Below are positions 3,466 through 62,485 of a stretch of DNA of 64,000 nt, piece by piece (position 1 is the stretch's first letter; each line of letters starts with the position of its first letter). Under the pieces are notes generated by a model. That model saw nothing but the letters and a program-made list of their open reading frames with translations. It was not told the DNA's origin and did not search any database. The stretch is from an uncultured Mycoplasmataceae bacterium. Lineage in GTDB: Bacteria > Bacillota_I > Bacilli_A > Mycoplasmatales > Mycoplasmoidaceae. The stretch lies in the NCBI GenBank assembly GCA_947041945.1, contig CAMREV010000002.1:1-64000 (forward strand), written 5' to 3'. The position numbers and the translations under genes are program-made.

Positions 3466-3532
3466 AAATTAATAAAAAAAGTTATTAATATATAACAAAT
3501 TTATTATGATGATAAAATCATGAAAAAAAAAT

Positions 3533-3562
3533 AAAAAATGTATTTACAAATACATTTTTTTA
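3533..3562 (+). terminator. Terminator of lipoprotein copy 1
   Basis: AAAAATGTATT pairs with AATACATTTTT and runs into T. The same hairpin, and about 40 bp of sequence before it, recur after copy 2 at 5099-5130. Confidence 0.65.
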
Positions 3563-3667
3563 TTTGGGTTAACACATTATTCAAATTAATAAATATTTTT
3601 TATAAAAAATATTCATTTGTTAATCAATAATTAAAGCAAGATATTTATTTTAAACTTTATAAATTTA

Positions 3668-4954: not shown

Positions 4955-5098
4955 GAATCATTAAAAAAAGTTTACTAATAAATACACTTTTTTTCTAAAA
5001 AATAGATCATAAAATTAATTATTTCATTAGAAATACTTACCTTTTATATGTATTGATATATAACAAATTTATTATGATGATAAAATCATTAAAAAAAA

Positions 5099-5130
5099 TA
5101 AAAAATGTATTTACTGATACATTTTTTTTA
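5099..5130 (+). terminator. Terminator of lipoprotein copy 2
   Basis: AAAAAATGTAT and ATACATTTTTT flank a short loop and are followed by T. Duplicate of the hairpin at 3533-3562. Confidence 0.65.
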
Positions 5131-5222
5131 TTTATTTTTGGAGACATTAATTAAATTAATAAATATTTTTTGTGATATCAAATTATAATTAATTATAAAT
5201 ATATTAAAATTAAGAGATCCGA

Positions 5223-19421: not shown

Positions 19422-21781
19422 TTGTTATTTTTATGATCATTTTTTAACTTATTTTTTTTATATTTGTAAAAGAAAATACTGCCCAAACCAATAGTAATAA
19501 ATATTATTGCTGACAAAATTGCAATATTCAATATATTCAGTCCTTCGATAGAAACTTCATTTGATTTTATACTATTTTTGATTTCAAGTATTTTATTTCT
19601 AACAAATTCATTATTTATTTCATTTTCATATTCAATATTTAATTCATTAAATATAAAATCTAAATAATTAAATATATTGTTTGGGTCTTTTTTTATTTGA
19701 GTTCATACTTCTTTTTCAATAAAACTACCATCTATATTATCGTGCGTAATTCCATTAATTTCTGTTGTATTTAATATTTCAATACTATGAAATTTTTTAC
19801 TTTGATCATTTGTAAAAAAGTCATTGTTATTTTTTTCAATATAATTTATTTTAAACATAATATTAAAGTTATTAAGAATGTTTAAATAGTCATTAAAATT
19901 TTTTGTATAATTTGTTTTGTTTGTTCTTAATTTTATAAGAAAATATCCATTGGTATCTTGCTCATTATTTACAATAAACTCTTTGATATTTAAACTGTTT
20001 TTATTTATATTATTTATAAATCTTATTTTATCTTCAATGCTGAAATCACCATTAAAATTATTTACACTATCAATTGTGTTTCATTTTGGAATTGTTGCCA
20101 AAACATAAAATATTCCATTGTTATTACTTGGATTGTGATTTATTAATTCTTTATTTTCAAAAATATTAAAATCTTTTAAAACATCATCGATATTATAAAA
20201 AGTATTTTTTGAGTAATCAAATGCTTCTATTGTATTAAATAAATTGTTTCCAACTCTTTTATTTAAATTTTCTTTTATTTTTAATGCCAAGTCATTATCA
20301 GCAGTTTCCACAAAAGAAACATTTTGCCCATCATTCATTAAAATATCTTCAACATTTGCATCTAAATCAATAGGAATACACTTATCAAATGAATTTTCCA
20401 CATTAATATTAGTTTCAGTAAAATCATTTCTGTAATTTAATGTATATTCTCCAAATGCATCACTTGTTTTTAAGGAACCAGAAATTACTTTTGATTCAAA
20501 GCTTTTTAATTTGTTTTCTATATGATTAATTTTAATATTTAAAGTATTTTTGTTGCTATCAATATTGAAAAAATCATATTCATTTAATAATGAATTTCCA
20601 TTTCAAATGATATAGTCTTTTCCCTCAAAGCCATTGATACTAATATTAGCAATTATTTCATTATTTTTAAATCAACCAATTATTCTTTCATACAATAAAC
20701 TTAATTCATTAATTGAGTATTTTTGATTATCATTTTTTTGCTTAATTATCTTGCTTTTGATTAATCTATCTTGAAGATTATTCATTTCATCATCATTAAT
20801 AAATTCCTTACCATTATTTGATTTGATATAGTCACTAATAAATTTTAATAATTTCAAATCATCAGAAAATTTAAATATACTTTCATAGTTGTTTTTTGTT
20901 AAATCTTCTTTATTTCAAATTCCGGATTCATTATTTGGATTATTTTCTAAATATGGAAGATTAATTGATAGAAATGTTTTGATTATATCTATACTATTTT
21001 TAGAGCTAAATAAATCAATTGAAAAATCTGAATTAAAAACATTACTTTCCTTCTTATTATTCAGATTTTTTTCAGTAGAAATTGTGTAATCAAACCCAGA
21101 AAAATAATTTCAATCAAAACCTTGATTATAAATATGAAAATCTTCTATATGGTTTAATAAATTCGTTTCAAATTTATAGTCCATGACATACTGGCCACCA
21201 ATTTGATTTTCAGTTGATTTCATTTGTTTGAAACTAGATAATAAAAAAACTTTTCAATCAAAGTTGCCAGATCAACTACAATTTTTAGCATGTGTCTCAC
21301 CATAAACTGCATTAAACTTTTGATCCAATTTTGTTTTCTCAGTAATAAAAAATTTATCAGATTTTAAATATTTTGTTTGTTCTCCTAATTTTTTTCCAAA
21401 AGGATTTTCATCATTATTTATTTCACCAATTAATTTCAATAATAGATCATCATCAACTTTGAAATTTAAATCCTTATTTATATTAAATGCATTTAAGTAT
21501 TCTAGTGTTTTCTGACCTCCATTATTTCATAATGTAGTGTAATTTCTTGCGCTTCAATTGATTAAATCTTTTGCTAATATAAAATTATTATTGTACATAG
21601 ATATATCTTTATTTAAAATATCTTCAACAATAGTGGTTTTACTTTGATTTGAATCTTTTTTATTTTGCTTACTACTCATTTGTTTATTAATGATGCTATT
21701 CGATCCACTAAATGCTATCATTGAACACAGCGATAGCGTTGAAATAGCAACAATTCTTTTTTTGTAATTTTTTAATTTCAT
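19403..21781 (-). CDS. Large surface protein with signal peptide and C-terminal anchor
   Basis: 792 residues. A basic N-terminus and hydrophobic segment (about 9-28) form a signal peptide or anchor without a lipobox. The body is Asn/Asp/Lys/Ile rich, and a hydrophobic helix close to the C-terminus (about 752-772) is followed by a Lys-rich cytoplasmic tail. This is the topology of mycoplasma surface adhesins or nutrient-binding proteins anchored at both or one end. I recognise no family. ATG 21781 has GGAG just upstream. It is divergent from the MFS-like gene. Confidence 0.8.
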
Positions 21782-52086: not shown

Positions 52087-52099
52087 TATAAAACCATTC

Positions 52100-52140
52100 A
52101 AAACAAAAAAACAAGCCTTAAAACGCTTGTTTTTTTGTTT
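52100..52140 (+). terminator. Terminator of the nusA-infB-rbfA operon
   Basis: Perfect 15-bp stem (52102-52116 with 52125-52139), loop CTTAAAAC, T-rich 3' arm. Confidence 0.85.
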
Positions 52141-52487
52141 AATTAAAAAATATTTTTTTGTTATTAAATTACCCACAATTTATGTGGGAAACTAAAAAAC
52201 CCCTTATATTTTATAATTTTTTTCCAATTTTATTAGAATTAAATTGTGGGAAAAATCATTGTTATACAAATTTATAAAGATTTATTTTGAAATTTTTTTT
52301 ATTTTTCAATTTTATAGTTTTAAGATAATATTGTTGTTTGATTCAGGTTGCAAAAACCTTGGATTTTAAATTAATTCAATTATTTTGAACCTTTAACCTT
52401 ATTGTGCTAACAATATTAATTAAAGTAATTTTTATATAAAAAAATTATAATCATTATTTTATTTTTTGTTATTAGATAGGGGGATTT
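52141..52487 (+). promoter_or_regulatory. Long leader/regulatory region upstream of dnaB
   Basis: No ORF. Three CCCACA/TGTGGG elements (52172-52187 as a hairpin, and AATTGTGGGA near 52243-52253). A perfect 10-bp inverted repeat at 52326-52335/52409-52418 encloses two small hairpins (AGGTT/AACCT near 52345-52359 and TTCAA/TTGAA near 52375-52389), giving a possible multi-branched RNA fold. TATAAT-like box near 52445. Could be an operator region, a structured 5' leader or both. Confidence 0.4.
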
Positions 52488-57032: not shown

Positions 57033-58052
57033 ATGATGATAGATAGAAATATTATAAATAATTTAAAATCGTTTGTTGAATCGATAGATAATGAAAAAAA
57101 ATTAGCAGAAGAAAAGAACATTTTTAATAAAAAACACATTTCTCCTATTTATGGTCAAATAAAAGATAAATCTCCTGAAGAAAAAAAAGACTTTGGACAA
57201 AAAATAAATATTTTAAAATCTGAAATTGACAAAATATTTGATGATCAATTAAATAGAATAAAGGAACAATACATTAATTCATTAAGATCAAAGGTTGATC
57301 CATTATTAGATGTAAGTGATTCACTGATTGGTGGAATTAATCCAATTGAAGCTTCAATTAATGAAATTAATAATTTCTTTAAAGTATTAAACTTTGAAAT
57401 AGTTTCTGGTACCGAAATTTCTTCAGCTAAATATAATTTTGATAATTTGAATATGGATGAAAATCATGCTGCAAGAGATGAGCATGACACATTTTTTATT
57501 AACAAAAACACTATTTTAAGAACACATTGTACATCTGTAAGTGCAAAAATAATTGAGAATAACCCAAATGATGAAATTAAAGTTATTTCATATGGTAATG
57601 TTTACAGGAAAGATGAAGATGATGCAACTCATTCTCATCAATTTAATCAAGTAGATATTGTTTGAATTAGAAAAGATTTAAATATAAGCAATTTGAAATG
57701 ATTAATTAATAATTTCTTAAAATATTTTTTCAAAAATGACAATATAAAAACAAGATATAGACTATCTTATTTTCCCTTTACTGAACCATCTTTTGAAGTG
57801 GATATGTCTTGTTTTAAATGTAATGGAAAAGGTTGCAATATTTGTAAGGAAACTGGGTGAATTGAAGTTTTAGGATCTGGAATTTTCAATCCTAAAGTAA
57901 TCTATAAAGCAAACTTAAATGAGGATATGATTGGATTGGCTGCAGGTATTGGAATAGATCGTATAACGATGTTAAAATACGGAATAAATGACATCAGATA
58001 TTTATACAATAATGACTTTAGAATATTATCTAAATTTAAAGGAGAAAAATAA
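57033..58052 (+). CDS. pheS: Phenylalanyl-tRNA synthetase alpha subunit
   Basis: 339 residues. Class II catalytic subunit: N-terminal coiled coil, motif 2 region [36 protein letters not shown] and motif 3 [18 protein letters not shown] Cys-rich knuckle [17 protein letters not shown] is present, as in several Firmicutes. Two ATG codons (57033, 57036) are possible. Stop overlaps the pheT start (TAATG). Confidence 0.96.
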
Positions 58053-60376
58053 TGTACTTATCTAAAAAATTAATTACTAATTTCTTTCCTGAATTTGGTT
58101 TATTTAATGATAAAAAATTACTAGAAATTTTTAATTCACTTGGGATTGAATTAGAAACTATTTTTAATTTTGAAAACACTAATAATTTAGTTGTTGGTGA
58201 AATTTTAGAAACCAAAAAACATCCAAGTGCAGATAATCTAAATTTGTGCAAAGTAAAAATTTCAAGTTCTAAAATAAATACTATTGTTTGTGGTGCAAAA
58301 AATGTTCACAAAGGACAAAAAGTCATTGTTGCATTAAAGGGAGCAAAATTTATTGATGGTAGAGTAATCGAATACAAAGAACTAAGAGGTATTTTATCTG
58401 AAGGAATGATCTGTGCATATAATGAATTAACAAACAGAACTGATTGATGCAATAAAAATGAATTAGATGATATTATTACTCTTCCACATGTTGCTAAAGT
58501 TGGTGATAAAGCGCCTCTTAATTTTATAAGCATGAATGATACTATTTATGAACTTTCTATTCCTAGTAATAGAAACGATTTAAATTCTGTTTTTGGAATA
58601 ATTTTAGAAATACAATCATTCCTTAACCTTAAAAAAGAATTAGCTTTTAAAAACTTAAATAAAAAATTAAATAGCAAAATTAAATTAAAAAATAAAGTAT
58701 CAGAAAATCATTATTTGATTTCATTAAATAATGAAAAATACACAACATCAAATTGAATTGTTAAAACACTTTTAATGAACTCAGGATTTGTCCCTAATGA
58801 TTCAATTGATGATTTAGCAAAACTTAATCAAATACTTTCTGGAATTCCTACAATTTCTTTTACCAATATTAAAGGTAATAATTTAGAAATATCAAAACTA
58901 GAAAAACCAACAAAAGTAGAATTAAATAATTATGGAATAGTTAGTCTTAAAAAAGGCGATATTGTTTTAAAAAACAATAATGATATTGTTGCACTAATGA
59001 ATATTGATGTGTGTAAAAAATACGCTGTTAATCAAGAATCAAAAAAAGTTTATTTCTTATCTAGTGATACAAATTCAATGGATATTAGAAAAACATCTAG
59101 TAGATTAAAAATTATGAATGATAAAGTAAAATTTAGTTTAAAGAAAATATCTAGTTGATGATACAAAAAGTCTTTAGATATTTTAATTGAGAATTTAAAA
59201 CCAAATTTTAAAAATATTGAAGTTGATTTTAAGTATAAAGAAAATAAACAAAACAGAATAAAACTTAGCTTAAACAAAGTAAATAAATTATTAGGAATTA
59301 ATATAACTGATGCAAACATTAAAAAAGTTATTAGTTCTTTTGGTTACAAATTAACTAAGGATTATATTGTTACTCCAGAATATAGAATAGATATTGAAAA
59401 TGATCATGACATAATAGAAGATATTTTAAAAGTAATTGGAATTCAAAATATCCCTGAGATAAGTATTAAAAATTCAAATGTTTATAATATTAAAATCAAA
59501 GATAGCGATAACATAGCAAAAGTAAACAACTTGTTATTAAATAGAGGTTTTTATTTATTAAAAACTTACAATTTAACTTCTAAACAAAATAATAATAATT
59601 ACAATTATTTTAAATATACTAAACCCATTCAAATAAAAAATCCCATTTCATCTGATAGAGAATTCATGAGATTATCTTTACTTGATGGCATTCTTTCTTG
59701 CTACTCATATAATAGTTCTTTAAAAAACGAATTGGTTCCTATCTTTGAAATTCAAGAAGTATATTATGGTAATAACAAAAGAAAACACTTGATAGCAGCA
59801 ATATCAGAAGATTTGGTTATTAATGTTTTTAATAATTCAGTTATTAAGTCTGATATATTTTCATTAAAATCAATTGCACAAAGTATTGCATTTATTGCTA
59901 ATCAAGAACTAAATTTCCAAAAGGAAATATGTGATTCATGAGGATGCAAAAAAGATTCGATTAAAGTTAATATTGATAAAAACAATATAGGTTACATTAC
60001 TAGAATAAATCCAGAAGTTTTAAAATCATACAAAATTAAATCTGAAAAAGTATATGTGATGGAATTAGATATAACAGATTTAATTAACTTTCAAAAACCT
60101 TTAAACTTTGTTTTTGATGATGACAAAAAACACAAAATTGTAAGAGATATCTCAATCATTATTGATAAGGACTATGATTTAAACAACATTTATAAGTTGG
60201 CTAAGTCATGTAATTTATTGGAAGATCTAAATTTTATAGGTGCTTTTGAAAAAGAAAATGAAGTTTCATATACATTTAGGTTTAACTTGATTTCAAATGA
60301 TAGCGATGTAAAAACAAACTTTCAAAAAGTTATTGAATTTTTCTCAAACAATAAAATAAAAATAATTACTGGTTAG
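58052..60376 (+). CDS. pheT: Phenylalanyl-tRNA synthetase beta subunit, editing site eroded
   Basis: 774 residues. N-terminal tRNA-binding (EMAP-like) domain LVVGEILETKKHPSADNLNLCKV, then B1/B5 with IPSNRNDLNSVFGI, and a C-terminal FDX-ACB domain (about 690-774). The B3/B4 editing region (about 215-360) is present but I cannot find the family motifs GQPLHAFD, ALAGIMGG or the E-A loop; the region reads GIPTISFTNIK and DIVALMNIDV instead. Translationally coupled to pheS. Confidence 0.94.
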
Positions 60377-60383
60377 AAAGTAT

Positions 60384-60411
60384 TTGACTCTTTTTATTTT
60401 AAGTGTATAAT
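60384..60411 (+). promoter_or_regulatory. Near-consensus sigma-A promoter
   Basis: TTGACT (60384-60389), 16-bp spacer, TATAAT (60406-60411). One of the best promoters in the window, 8 bp past the pheT stop and pointing into a region with no ORF. Confidence 0.75.
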
Positions 60412-60417
60412 ATAGAT

Positions 60418-60812
60418 GTGCATATGATTACAAAATTTTTAAGAAATTTATAAATCATAGAAGTGAATTTTGATTTTTAAGTATCCAAGCTCGGGAAAAG
60501 CGAATATAGGTAGCGAGAACAAAAAGTATCATGATCCGATTTGACCAATGACGATCAGACATATGAGTATGTTTTACGAGAGTAAAGATATTAAAATGAT
60601 ATTAGTAGTGATATGAATATTATACATATATGAAAGTTATGTATGAGGATGCACAGAATTTAAAATACTTTTAGGGTTTAATTAGTTGTTAAATTATGCA
60701 TATTTGCAATTAATCCTTCTGAAGGAAAAATTAAATGTATTTGGTACTACTCACCCAGAGTAATATTTCTGAAAAAAAACAATCTTGTGAGGCAAGATTG
60801 TTTTTTTTTATT
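60418..60812 (+). ncRNA. Probable ~390-nt structured RNA of unknown family
   Basis: Bounded by a near-consensus promoter and an intrinsic terminator, with no ORF inside. The sequence is less AT-rich than surrounding spacers and has many local hairpins: CAAAATT/AATTTTG (near 60430-60473), TGATC/GATCA (60531-60559), CATA-TGAG-TATG, TTTAC-GAGA-GTAAA (60573-60588), ATACATA/TATGTAT (60622-60646), TCCTT-CTG-AAGGA (60714-60726), TACTC-ACCCA-GAGTA (60747-60761). It lacks the RNase P P4 sequence AGGAAAGTCC, the tmRNA tRNA-like ends and the SRP tetraloop motif. Either an independent ncRNA or a long leader of deoC. Confidence 0.55.
60772..60812 (+). terminator. Terminator of the RNA unit upstream of deoC
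   Basis: AAAACAATCTTG (60776-60787) pairs with CAAGATTGTTTT (60793-60804), loop TGAGG, then a long T-run. Strong intrinsic terminator. Confidence 0.85.
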
Positions 60813-60869
60813 ATTTATTAGCATATTTATTTTAATTTGTTAAAATATTATTAATTAAATGGAGAAAAC

Positions 60870-61517
60870 ATGGAAAATTATTCAAAATACATTGATTCAA
60901 CTGTTTTGGCAGCAAATGCAACAAAAGAAGAAATATATAAACTTTGTAAGGAAGCAATAAGTGAAAACTTTTTTTCAGTTTGCATAAATCCTTTTTATGT
61001 AAATTTGGCTAAACAAATCTTAAAAGGCTCGGACATAAAAGTATGTACAGTCGTTGGGTTTCCACTTGGTCAAAATACAATTAGTACAAAAGTATTTGAA
61101 ACACTTGATGCAATTAAAAATGGTGCTGACGAAATAGATATGGTAATAAATATTGCTAGATTAAAAGAAAACGACTTTAAGTACTGTGTTACTGAAATAA
61201 ATGAAGTAACAAAAGCAGCACAAGGAAGAATTGTAAAAGTTATTGTTGAAACTGCATTATTAACAGAAGAAGATAAAATTAATGCATGTCATATAATTTT
61301 AAATTCAAAGGCTGATTTCATAAAAACATCAACAGGTTTTTCAACATCTGGTGCTAAATTAGAAGATATTAAATTATTTGATAAAATAATTAAGAGAAGA
61401 AAATTCATTAAAGCAGCTGGTGGAATTAAAAATCATGCTGAGTTATTAGAATTTGTTGAAGCTGGCGTTGATAGAATCGGAACTTCAAAAGGTAAGGAAC
61501 TAATGAAAAAATACTAA
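60870..61517 (+). CDS. deoC: Deoxyribose-phosphate aldolase
   Basis: 215 residues. Schiff-base Lys in FIKTSTGF, second Lys in FIKAAGGIK, and VVGFPLG and ADEIDMVIN segments as in the family. Splits 2-deoxyribose-5-phosphate to glyceraldehyde-3-phosphate and acetaldehyde in nucleoside salvage. GGAG lies 6 nt before ATG. It lies downstream of the terminator of the RNA unit and may need read-through or a weak promoter near 60845. Confidence 0.96.
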   Translation: MENYSKYIDSTVLAANATKEEIYKLCKEAISENFFSVCINPFYVNLAKQILKGSDIKVCTVVGFPLGQNTISTKVFETLDAIKNGADEIDMVINIARLKENDFKYCVTEINEVTKAAQGRIVKVIVETALLTEEDKINACHIILNSKADFIKTSTGFSTSGAKLEDIKLFDKIIKRRKFIKAAGGIKNHAELLEFVEAGVDRIGTSKGKELMKKY

Positions 61518-61542
61518 GACTATTTCTTAGTATTTTTTTTAT
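61507..61542. terminator. Bidirectional terminator deoC/pseudouridine synthase
   Basis: AAAATACTAAG/CTTAGTATTTT with T-runs. Both stop codons (61515-61517 plus, 61520-61522 minus) lie inside the hairpin. Confidence 0.75.
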
Positions 61543-62485
61543 TCTTTTCTAGCAATTCATTAATATCAATTTTTTTAGGATCATATTTTTTGAAATTAAT
61601 TTTATTCAAATAAAACAACTCGTTTTTTTTGTCAGCATTAAATTTAATTTCATTTGATATAAGTATTTGAGATTTAACATCTGAATCATATTTTTGATTA
61701 GCATATTTGTAATCTCCAACTATTGGATTTTTATAGTAAGACAAATGAGCTCTTATCTGGTGTTTCTTTCCAGAAATTAATTCTATTTCTACTAGAGAGT
61801 AAGTTCATTCTTCTTTGATAACAAAAACATTAGTTTCGATGACACTTGTTTCATATGTGTTTGGAGAAGAACACACTTTCATTTTATTTTTAGTAATTGG
61901 GTGTTTATAAATATAGTCAACTCAATAGTTTTCTTTATTTCTTAATCTTCCATGAACTAATGCTAAGTATTTTTTTGAAATTTTCTTATTTGCAATAAGT
62001 TTATTTAAGTTTCTTACAACTTTTTTATTTTTACCAGCAATTACCAAACCTTCAGTGTTAACATCAATTCTGTTTATCAATGCTGGCTCTTGTTCAATGC
62101 TATAACCATCTCATTCTTTTTTATTAAAAAGATACAATTTTAAATAATTACTTAGTGTATTTGTTTTTTCATTAATATCTTCTTGACAATAAACACCTTT
62201 CTTTTTATCAAAAATAATAATGTTTTCATCTTCATAAAAAATGATTGATTTTATCTTACAATCCTTAAAATCGTATTCTTTTTCTTTTGGAATTGTAATA
62301 TAAAAAGATAAAATATCACCCTTTAAAAGCAACTGATTATCCTTCACTTTTTTATTGTTTATTTTAATATTTCCCTTGTTTATGCTCTTTTTTACAAAAG
62401 AAATCGTTTTGTTTTGTAAGAAAATGAAACAAAATTCACTAACTGTTTTGCCAATATATTGGTCTTCTATTTTTATTTCTTTCAT
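61520..62485 (-). CDS. RluA-family pseudouridine synthase
   Basis: 321 residues. An N-terminal S4-like domain (VKKSINKGNIKINNKKVK) and a RluA-type catalytic core: the HRLDxxTSG motif is NRIDVNTEG here with the catalytic Asp kept, and KKYLALVHGRL and SGKKHQIRAHL follow. RluC/RluD-like modification of 23S rRNA is likely; exact site unknown. About 65 extra residues at the C-terminus after the core. Convergent with deoC. Confidence 0.88.

Follow-up and report, generated by a model that had tools for sequence, protein, structure and literature searches.

The 490-nt intergenic region between pheT (stop codon at 60376) and deoC (start codon at 60870) raises the question of what so long a spacer contains in a reduced mollicute genome, where spacer DNA is scarce. 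The region lies in the window analysed here, a stretch of 64,000 nucleotides corresponding to C2:1-64000. The genome comprises 661 kb in 12 contigs, is 90% complete and reads TGA as tryptophan, which identifies a mollicute. The segment of interest (60384-60812) and its surroundings contain the following features.

58052-60376, plus strand: pheT, the gene upstream of the segment.
60384-60411, plus strand: sigma-70-type promoter TTGACT-16-TATAAT, 8 nt past the pheT stop codon, matching at 11 of 12 positions.
60417-60812, plus strand: predicted noncoding RNA of ca. 395 nt, its start placed 6 nt past the -10 box (spacer from PMC5138195) and its end given by the terminator.
60735-60821, plus strand: ORF of 28 codons, with AAGGA at 60722-60726, 8 nt before the ATG at 60735.
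60770-60810, plus strand: intrinsic terminator with a 19-bp stem, a 3-nt loop and a T9 tail, nearly symmetrical and terminator-like on the minus strand too.
60838-60846, plus strand: extended -10 TGTTAAAAT, behind the terminator.
60870-61517, plus strand: deoC, the gene downstream of the segment, with a GGAG ribosome site immediately 5' of its ATG.

The promoter was present as described in the initial annotation of this DNA. Sites matching at 11 or more of 12 positions numbered 33 in 659 kb of the organism's own genome (both strands), and their density was ca. 9-fold higher in intergenic than in coding DNA (0.142 vs 0.016 per kb and strand). Of the 14 sites between genes, at least 11 precede a gene or the rRNA operon, ten being located 19-142 nt upstream of a same-strand gene and one ahead of the rRNA operon; the promoter at 60384-60411 is among the few without a gene downstream. 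Since sites of this quality are rare genome-wide, enriched between genes and mostly found ahead of genes, a chance match appears unlikely. Among mapped mollicute promoters, the TTGACA -35 box is clear or degenerate depending on the species (PMC5138195).

The strong terminator that had been claimed was confirmed at 60770-60810. It is the sole terminator-like site within 59500-61600, and the DNA from the end of pheT to 60770 contained none. With no other terminator behind pheT, transcripts of pheST probably stop here and carry the segment as a 3' UTR. Such a layout is that of a 3'-UTR-associated RNA having its own promoter. When the genome was scanned for intergenic promoter-terminator pairs, ca. 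seven units were obtained, among which the segment had the best promoter together with the strongest terminator.

The GC content of the segment was 27.3%, a value reached by 0 of 2364 other intergenic windows of the same length (mean 16.4, sd 3.2, max 26.5%), a set that omits known RNAs, missed ORFs and two further RNA candidates. Intergenic DNA of this genome has 16-20% GC on average, and its RNase P RNA, tmRNA and SRP RNA have 32.5%, 28.1% and 25.8%, respectively. Length combined with GC content has been used in the literature to pick out structured RNA genes where genomes are AT-rich (PMC8632094), and the segment, lying in a long intergenic region with GC like that of known RNA genes, is selected by it. 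Coding DNA of the genome has 25% GC, so that a decayed gene would look alike.

In agreement with the statement that the unit has no ORF, ca. 360 nt between the promoter and the terminator were devoid of a credible reading frame. The best ORF in the segment (71 codons under code 4, with a TTG start) is noncoding, since its codon score was -0.25 per codon, whereas real stretches of 71 codons have a 1st percentile of -0.05 under a codon model trained on the long genes of the genome. No Pfam match was obtained with six-frame translations of the segment, which speaks against a decayed protein gene.

Rfam searches at the gathering score gave no match in the whole window and nothing relevant to the segment in nearly all of the genome; at E ≤ 10, the intergenic region yielded chance matches alone, with no 6S, U6 or riboswitch. 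The absence of a known RNA family, previously judged by eye, thus withstood the Rfam check. It had also been stated that the segment is not RNase P RNA, tmRNA or SRP RNA, and all three were located elsewhere: RNase P RNA (RF00011) at C10:7064-7401 with 226.7 bits and no match in the window, tmRNA (RF00023) at C7:18319-18713 with neither a model match nor tRNA-like ends seen in the window, and SRP RNA (RF00169) at C7:28485-28577 with 52.1 bits. The rRNAs and tRNAs were likewise found elsewhere in the genome.

A blastn search with the segment against 38 relatives, all 95 genomes of the family and 248 genomes of the order returned short AT-rich chance pieces only. As a yardstick, the organism's own RNase P RNA matched 83 of the 95 family genomes in the same search, covering all 11 genera; an RNA of nearly equal conservation would therefore have shown. 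The two congeners are only ca. 78% complete, which makes the absence of the segment there likely, not certain. The suggestion of a housekeeping RNA was abandoned on these grounds, the RNase P, tmRNA, SRP and rRNA slots being filled elsewhere and homologs being absent. A weak likeness to U6 snRNA, to which the mycoplasma RNA MCS4 had been compared, also failed, as the resemblance covers 17 nt only and no U6 match was seen at E ≤ 10. MCS4 RNA, which has U6 similarity, is ca. 125 nt long and differs in length from the unit of ca. 395 nt.

Searches of other kinds were negative as well. Blastn against phages and plasmids gave noise, GTDB contigs scanned with PheT and with a 23-mer of the core contained no match, and neither did IMG/VR scanned with a 20-mer. 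No CRISPR arrays, sought with a tracrRNA in mind, were found, and antisense complementarity of the segment to translation starts was not above that of shuffles (P 0.24). No paralog was detected in the genome by nhmmer, indicating that the segment is single copy; one candidate from permissive blastn, at C3:46390, falls within a helicase-like gene and was unsupported by nhmmer. Elsewhere in the window, the noncoding stretch 1288-1455 shares 81% identity over 174 nt with C12:7371-7541 (E 1e-40), both adjoining MNKKIKxSLLGTL-type lipoprotein genes, and 3483-3635 and 5051-5208 form an intergenic repeat pair (82.5% identity over 160 nt) with similar repeat families at C4 62-66 kb and C12 3-7 kb.

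The fold predicted from the single sequence comprises the following elements.

60413-60486, plus strand: 5' side of a predicted long interrupted closing arm (base-pair probabilities 0.77-1.0), with predicted helices at 60413-60424, 60451-60456, 60458-60465, 60467-60473, 60475-60478 and 60481-60486.
60487-60646, plus strand: predicted central domain, with hairpins at 60490-60517, 60532-60557, 60572-60587 (GAGA loop), 60596-60623 and 60625-60645.
60647-60706, plus strand: 3' side of the closing arm according to the fold prediction.
60743-60767, plus strand: 3' hairpin with an ACCCA loop ahead of the terminator (helix probability 0.95 for 60748-60762).

Folding of the segment gave z = -3.3 with the terminator and z = -1.2 to -1.6 without it, while the controls gave -1.6 to -1.8 (flanking coding segments), -0.4 (RNase P RNA) and -3.2 (tmRNA). 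Without the terminator, excess folding was not significant relative to shuffles or coding segments, and the ensemble was no better defined than those of shuffles or coding controls. Since coding controls scored alike, the folding statistics were dropped as evidence. Of the many hairpins noted by the initial annotation, those with the GAGA and ACCCA loops are present, but their number does not exceed chance at these z values.

We favour the interpretation that the segment is a lineage-specific noncoding RNA gene, which we hold with evenly divided confidence. RNA polymerase carrying the main sigma factor would initiate at ca. 60417 and stop at the terminator ending at 60810, and the product would be a discrete RNA of ca. 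395 nt that is not translated. Read-through from pheST would end at the same terminator, so that the segment would double as the pheST 3' UTR. When folded, the RNA would most likely act in trans by binding a protein or other RNAs, and its action may be restricted to this species or its nearest kin. The promoter, the terminator, the noncoding character, the raised GC content, the absence of homologs and the likely separate deoC promoter are seen in the sequence; that the RNA is transcribed, stable, folded as predicted and functional is what we infer. The interpretation is based on a promoter close to the consensus, of a kind that in nearly every case has a gene behind it in this genome, on the terminator and the top rank of the promoter-terminator pair, and on a GC content like that of RNA genes in a single-copy segment with no coding signature. 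Counted against it were the lack of homologs, a fold at chance level, the lack of significant antisense targets, the coding-level GC, and the view that most catalogued noncoding RNAs of Mycoplasma pneumoniae are noise (PMC12494982). A 490-nt region with a GC content at the level of the essential RNAs suggests that an RNA gene belonging to none of the described families has been maintained. If it proves to be transcribed and conserved among strains, its RNA would form a class that is both new and young; otherwise the region would exemplify how promoter and terminator signals mislead in AT-rich genomes.

The main rival is a functionless transcribed or decayed spacer, in which a decayed gene or an expanded pheST 3' UTR carries a leftover or spurious promoter and the terminator merely ends pheST. 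This is a real possibility, although we consider it somewhat unlikely. Spurious promoters are numerous in AT-rich mollicutes (PMC5138195, PMC12494982), conservation was found nowhere, folding is at chance level and the GC content equals that of coding DNA. However, promoters of such quality are genuine in nearly all cases in this organism, none of the frames looks like a Pfam family, and the GC content exceeds that of every other unexplained intergenic window even though mutation drives spacers to 16-20%.

A bolder form of the noncoding RNA gene reading, that the segment belongs to a new large structured RNA class as part of a group of long orphan RNAs, trans-acting or serving as a scaffold in one mollicute lineage, seems unlikely. 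The group would consist of the segment and the units at C2:89331-89700 and C8:20000-20560. At least two more noncoding units in the genome are long, rich in GC and unmatched in Rfam, so the segment is not unique. The unit at C2:89331-89700 (L129:5331-5700), outside the window, is an orphan of ca. 310-330 nt with a promoter-like start, a terminator-like end, 29.8% GC and a well-defined fold (ensemble z -2.8); it matched nothing in Rfam, and the 95 family genomes contained no real homolog. The unit at C8:20000-20560 on the minus strand (L124/L148) forms a very long imperfect hairpin over ca. 450 nt (z -5.9), with an extended TG-TATAAT at 20522, a terminator at its end, no ORF and no Rfam match. 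Within the window, a 400-nt intergenic region on the minus strand (52087-52487) has TATAAT at 52449 and a terminator at 52110, and its plus-strand folding gave z -4.0.

The alternative raised in the initial annotation, a long riboswitch-like leader of deoC, would require that transcription from 60384 be attenuated at 60770-60810 by a nucleoside and that read-through transcribe deoC. The segment does lie directly 5' of deoC on the same strand, with the terminator 60 nt ahead of the deoC start codon. However, TGTTAAAAT at 60838-60846, between the terminator and deoC, is likely a separate deoC promoter, no segment of the RNA paired with the terminator arms better than shuffled sequences (P 0.71, 0.91), and no riboswitch family matched. 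Furthermore, in 25 relatives the gap between deoC and the gene ahead of it is 1-123 nt (in one, 237 nt) and holds no long leader enriched in GC; these were the relatives with readable DNA upstream of deoC, three contig-end loci and one congener locus (L106) being left out. With a likely separate promoter, no antiterminator detected and no such leader in the relatives, this alternative was judged quite unlikely; attenuation peculiar to this species retains a small probability.

It is very improbable that the segment belongs, in strongly diverged form, to a known RNA family such as the 6S-like RNAs, or to a family that the relatives possess but that sequence comparison fails to recognise. Single-sequence searches are of limited reach, and a closing arm enclosing a central domain recalls many large RNAs, in outline only. 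Against this, not even a weak 6S or other relevant Rfam match appeared at E ≤ 10, genes for RNase P RNA, tmRNA, SRP RNA and rRNA are already present elsewhere, and RNase P RNA was recovered across equal evolutionary distances by the same search. Among the matches examined, those of two single-sequence models were all inside coding genes: a covariance model of 60481-60652 (R1) gave one match, in G021 (E 0.003), inside a lipoprotein gene, and the best match of a sequence-only model (R2) in 33 near genomes, in G008 (E 0.007), was inside an ORF.

The weakest alternative, a short peptide gene formed by the 28-codon ORF, whose translation across the terminator could prevent termination and couple to deoC, is extremely improbable: although this is the only ORF of the segment with a Shine-Dalgarno site, well spaced and equalled in strength in just 5.8% of simulated sequences, its codon score (-0.34 per codon) is far under that of real genes, the terminator stem makes up a large part of the frame and it has no homolog, so the ORF is probably due to chance.

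The proposed noncoding RNA gene can be compared with several known systems. Like the candidates obtained from long GC-rich intergenic regions with the GC-IGR pipeline (PMC8632094, PMC11109978), the segment is long, GC-enriched within an AT-rich genome and clusters with known RNA genes, but those classes were defined by comparative alignment, whereas the segment has no relatives from which a consensus structure or covariation could be derived. Class B RNase P RNA (RF00011) and tmRNA (RF00023) resemble it in length and raised GC, but both occur elsewhere in the genome and show no sequence or model match to it. Bacterial small RNAs that are associated with 3' UTRs and have their own promoter form a general type, with which the segment shares a promoter right behind the upstream stop codon and a common terminator, although it is much longer than typical members. 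MP200 of M. pneumoniae is an example of the species-restricted abundant small RNAs of mycoplasmas. MP200 carries a 29-aa ORF (PMC12494982), whereas the segment has no credible ORF; both are mollicute-specific units with no family outside their species group, a likeness in type.
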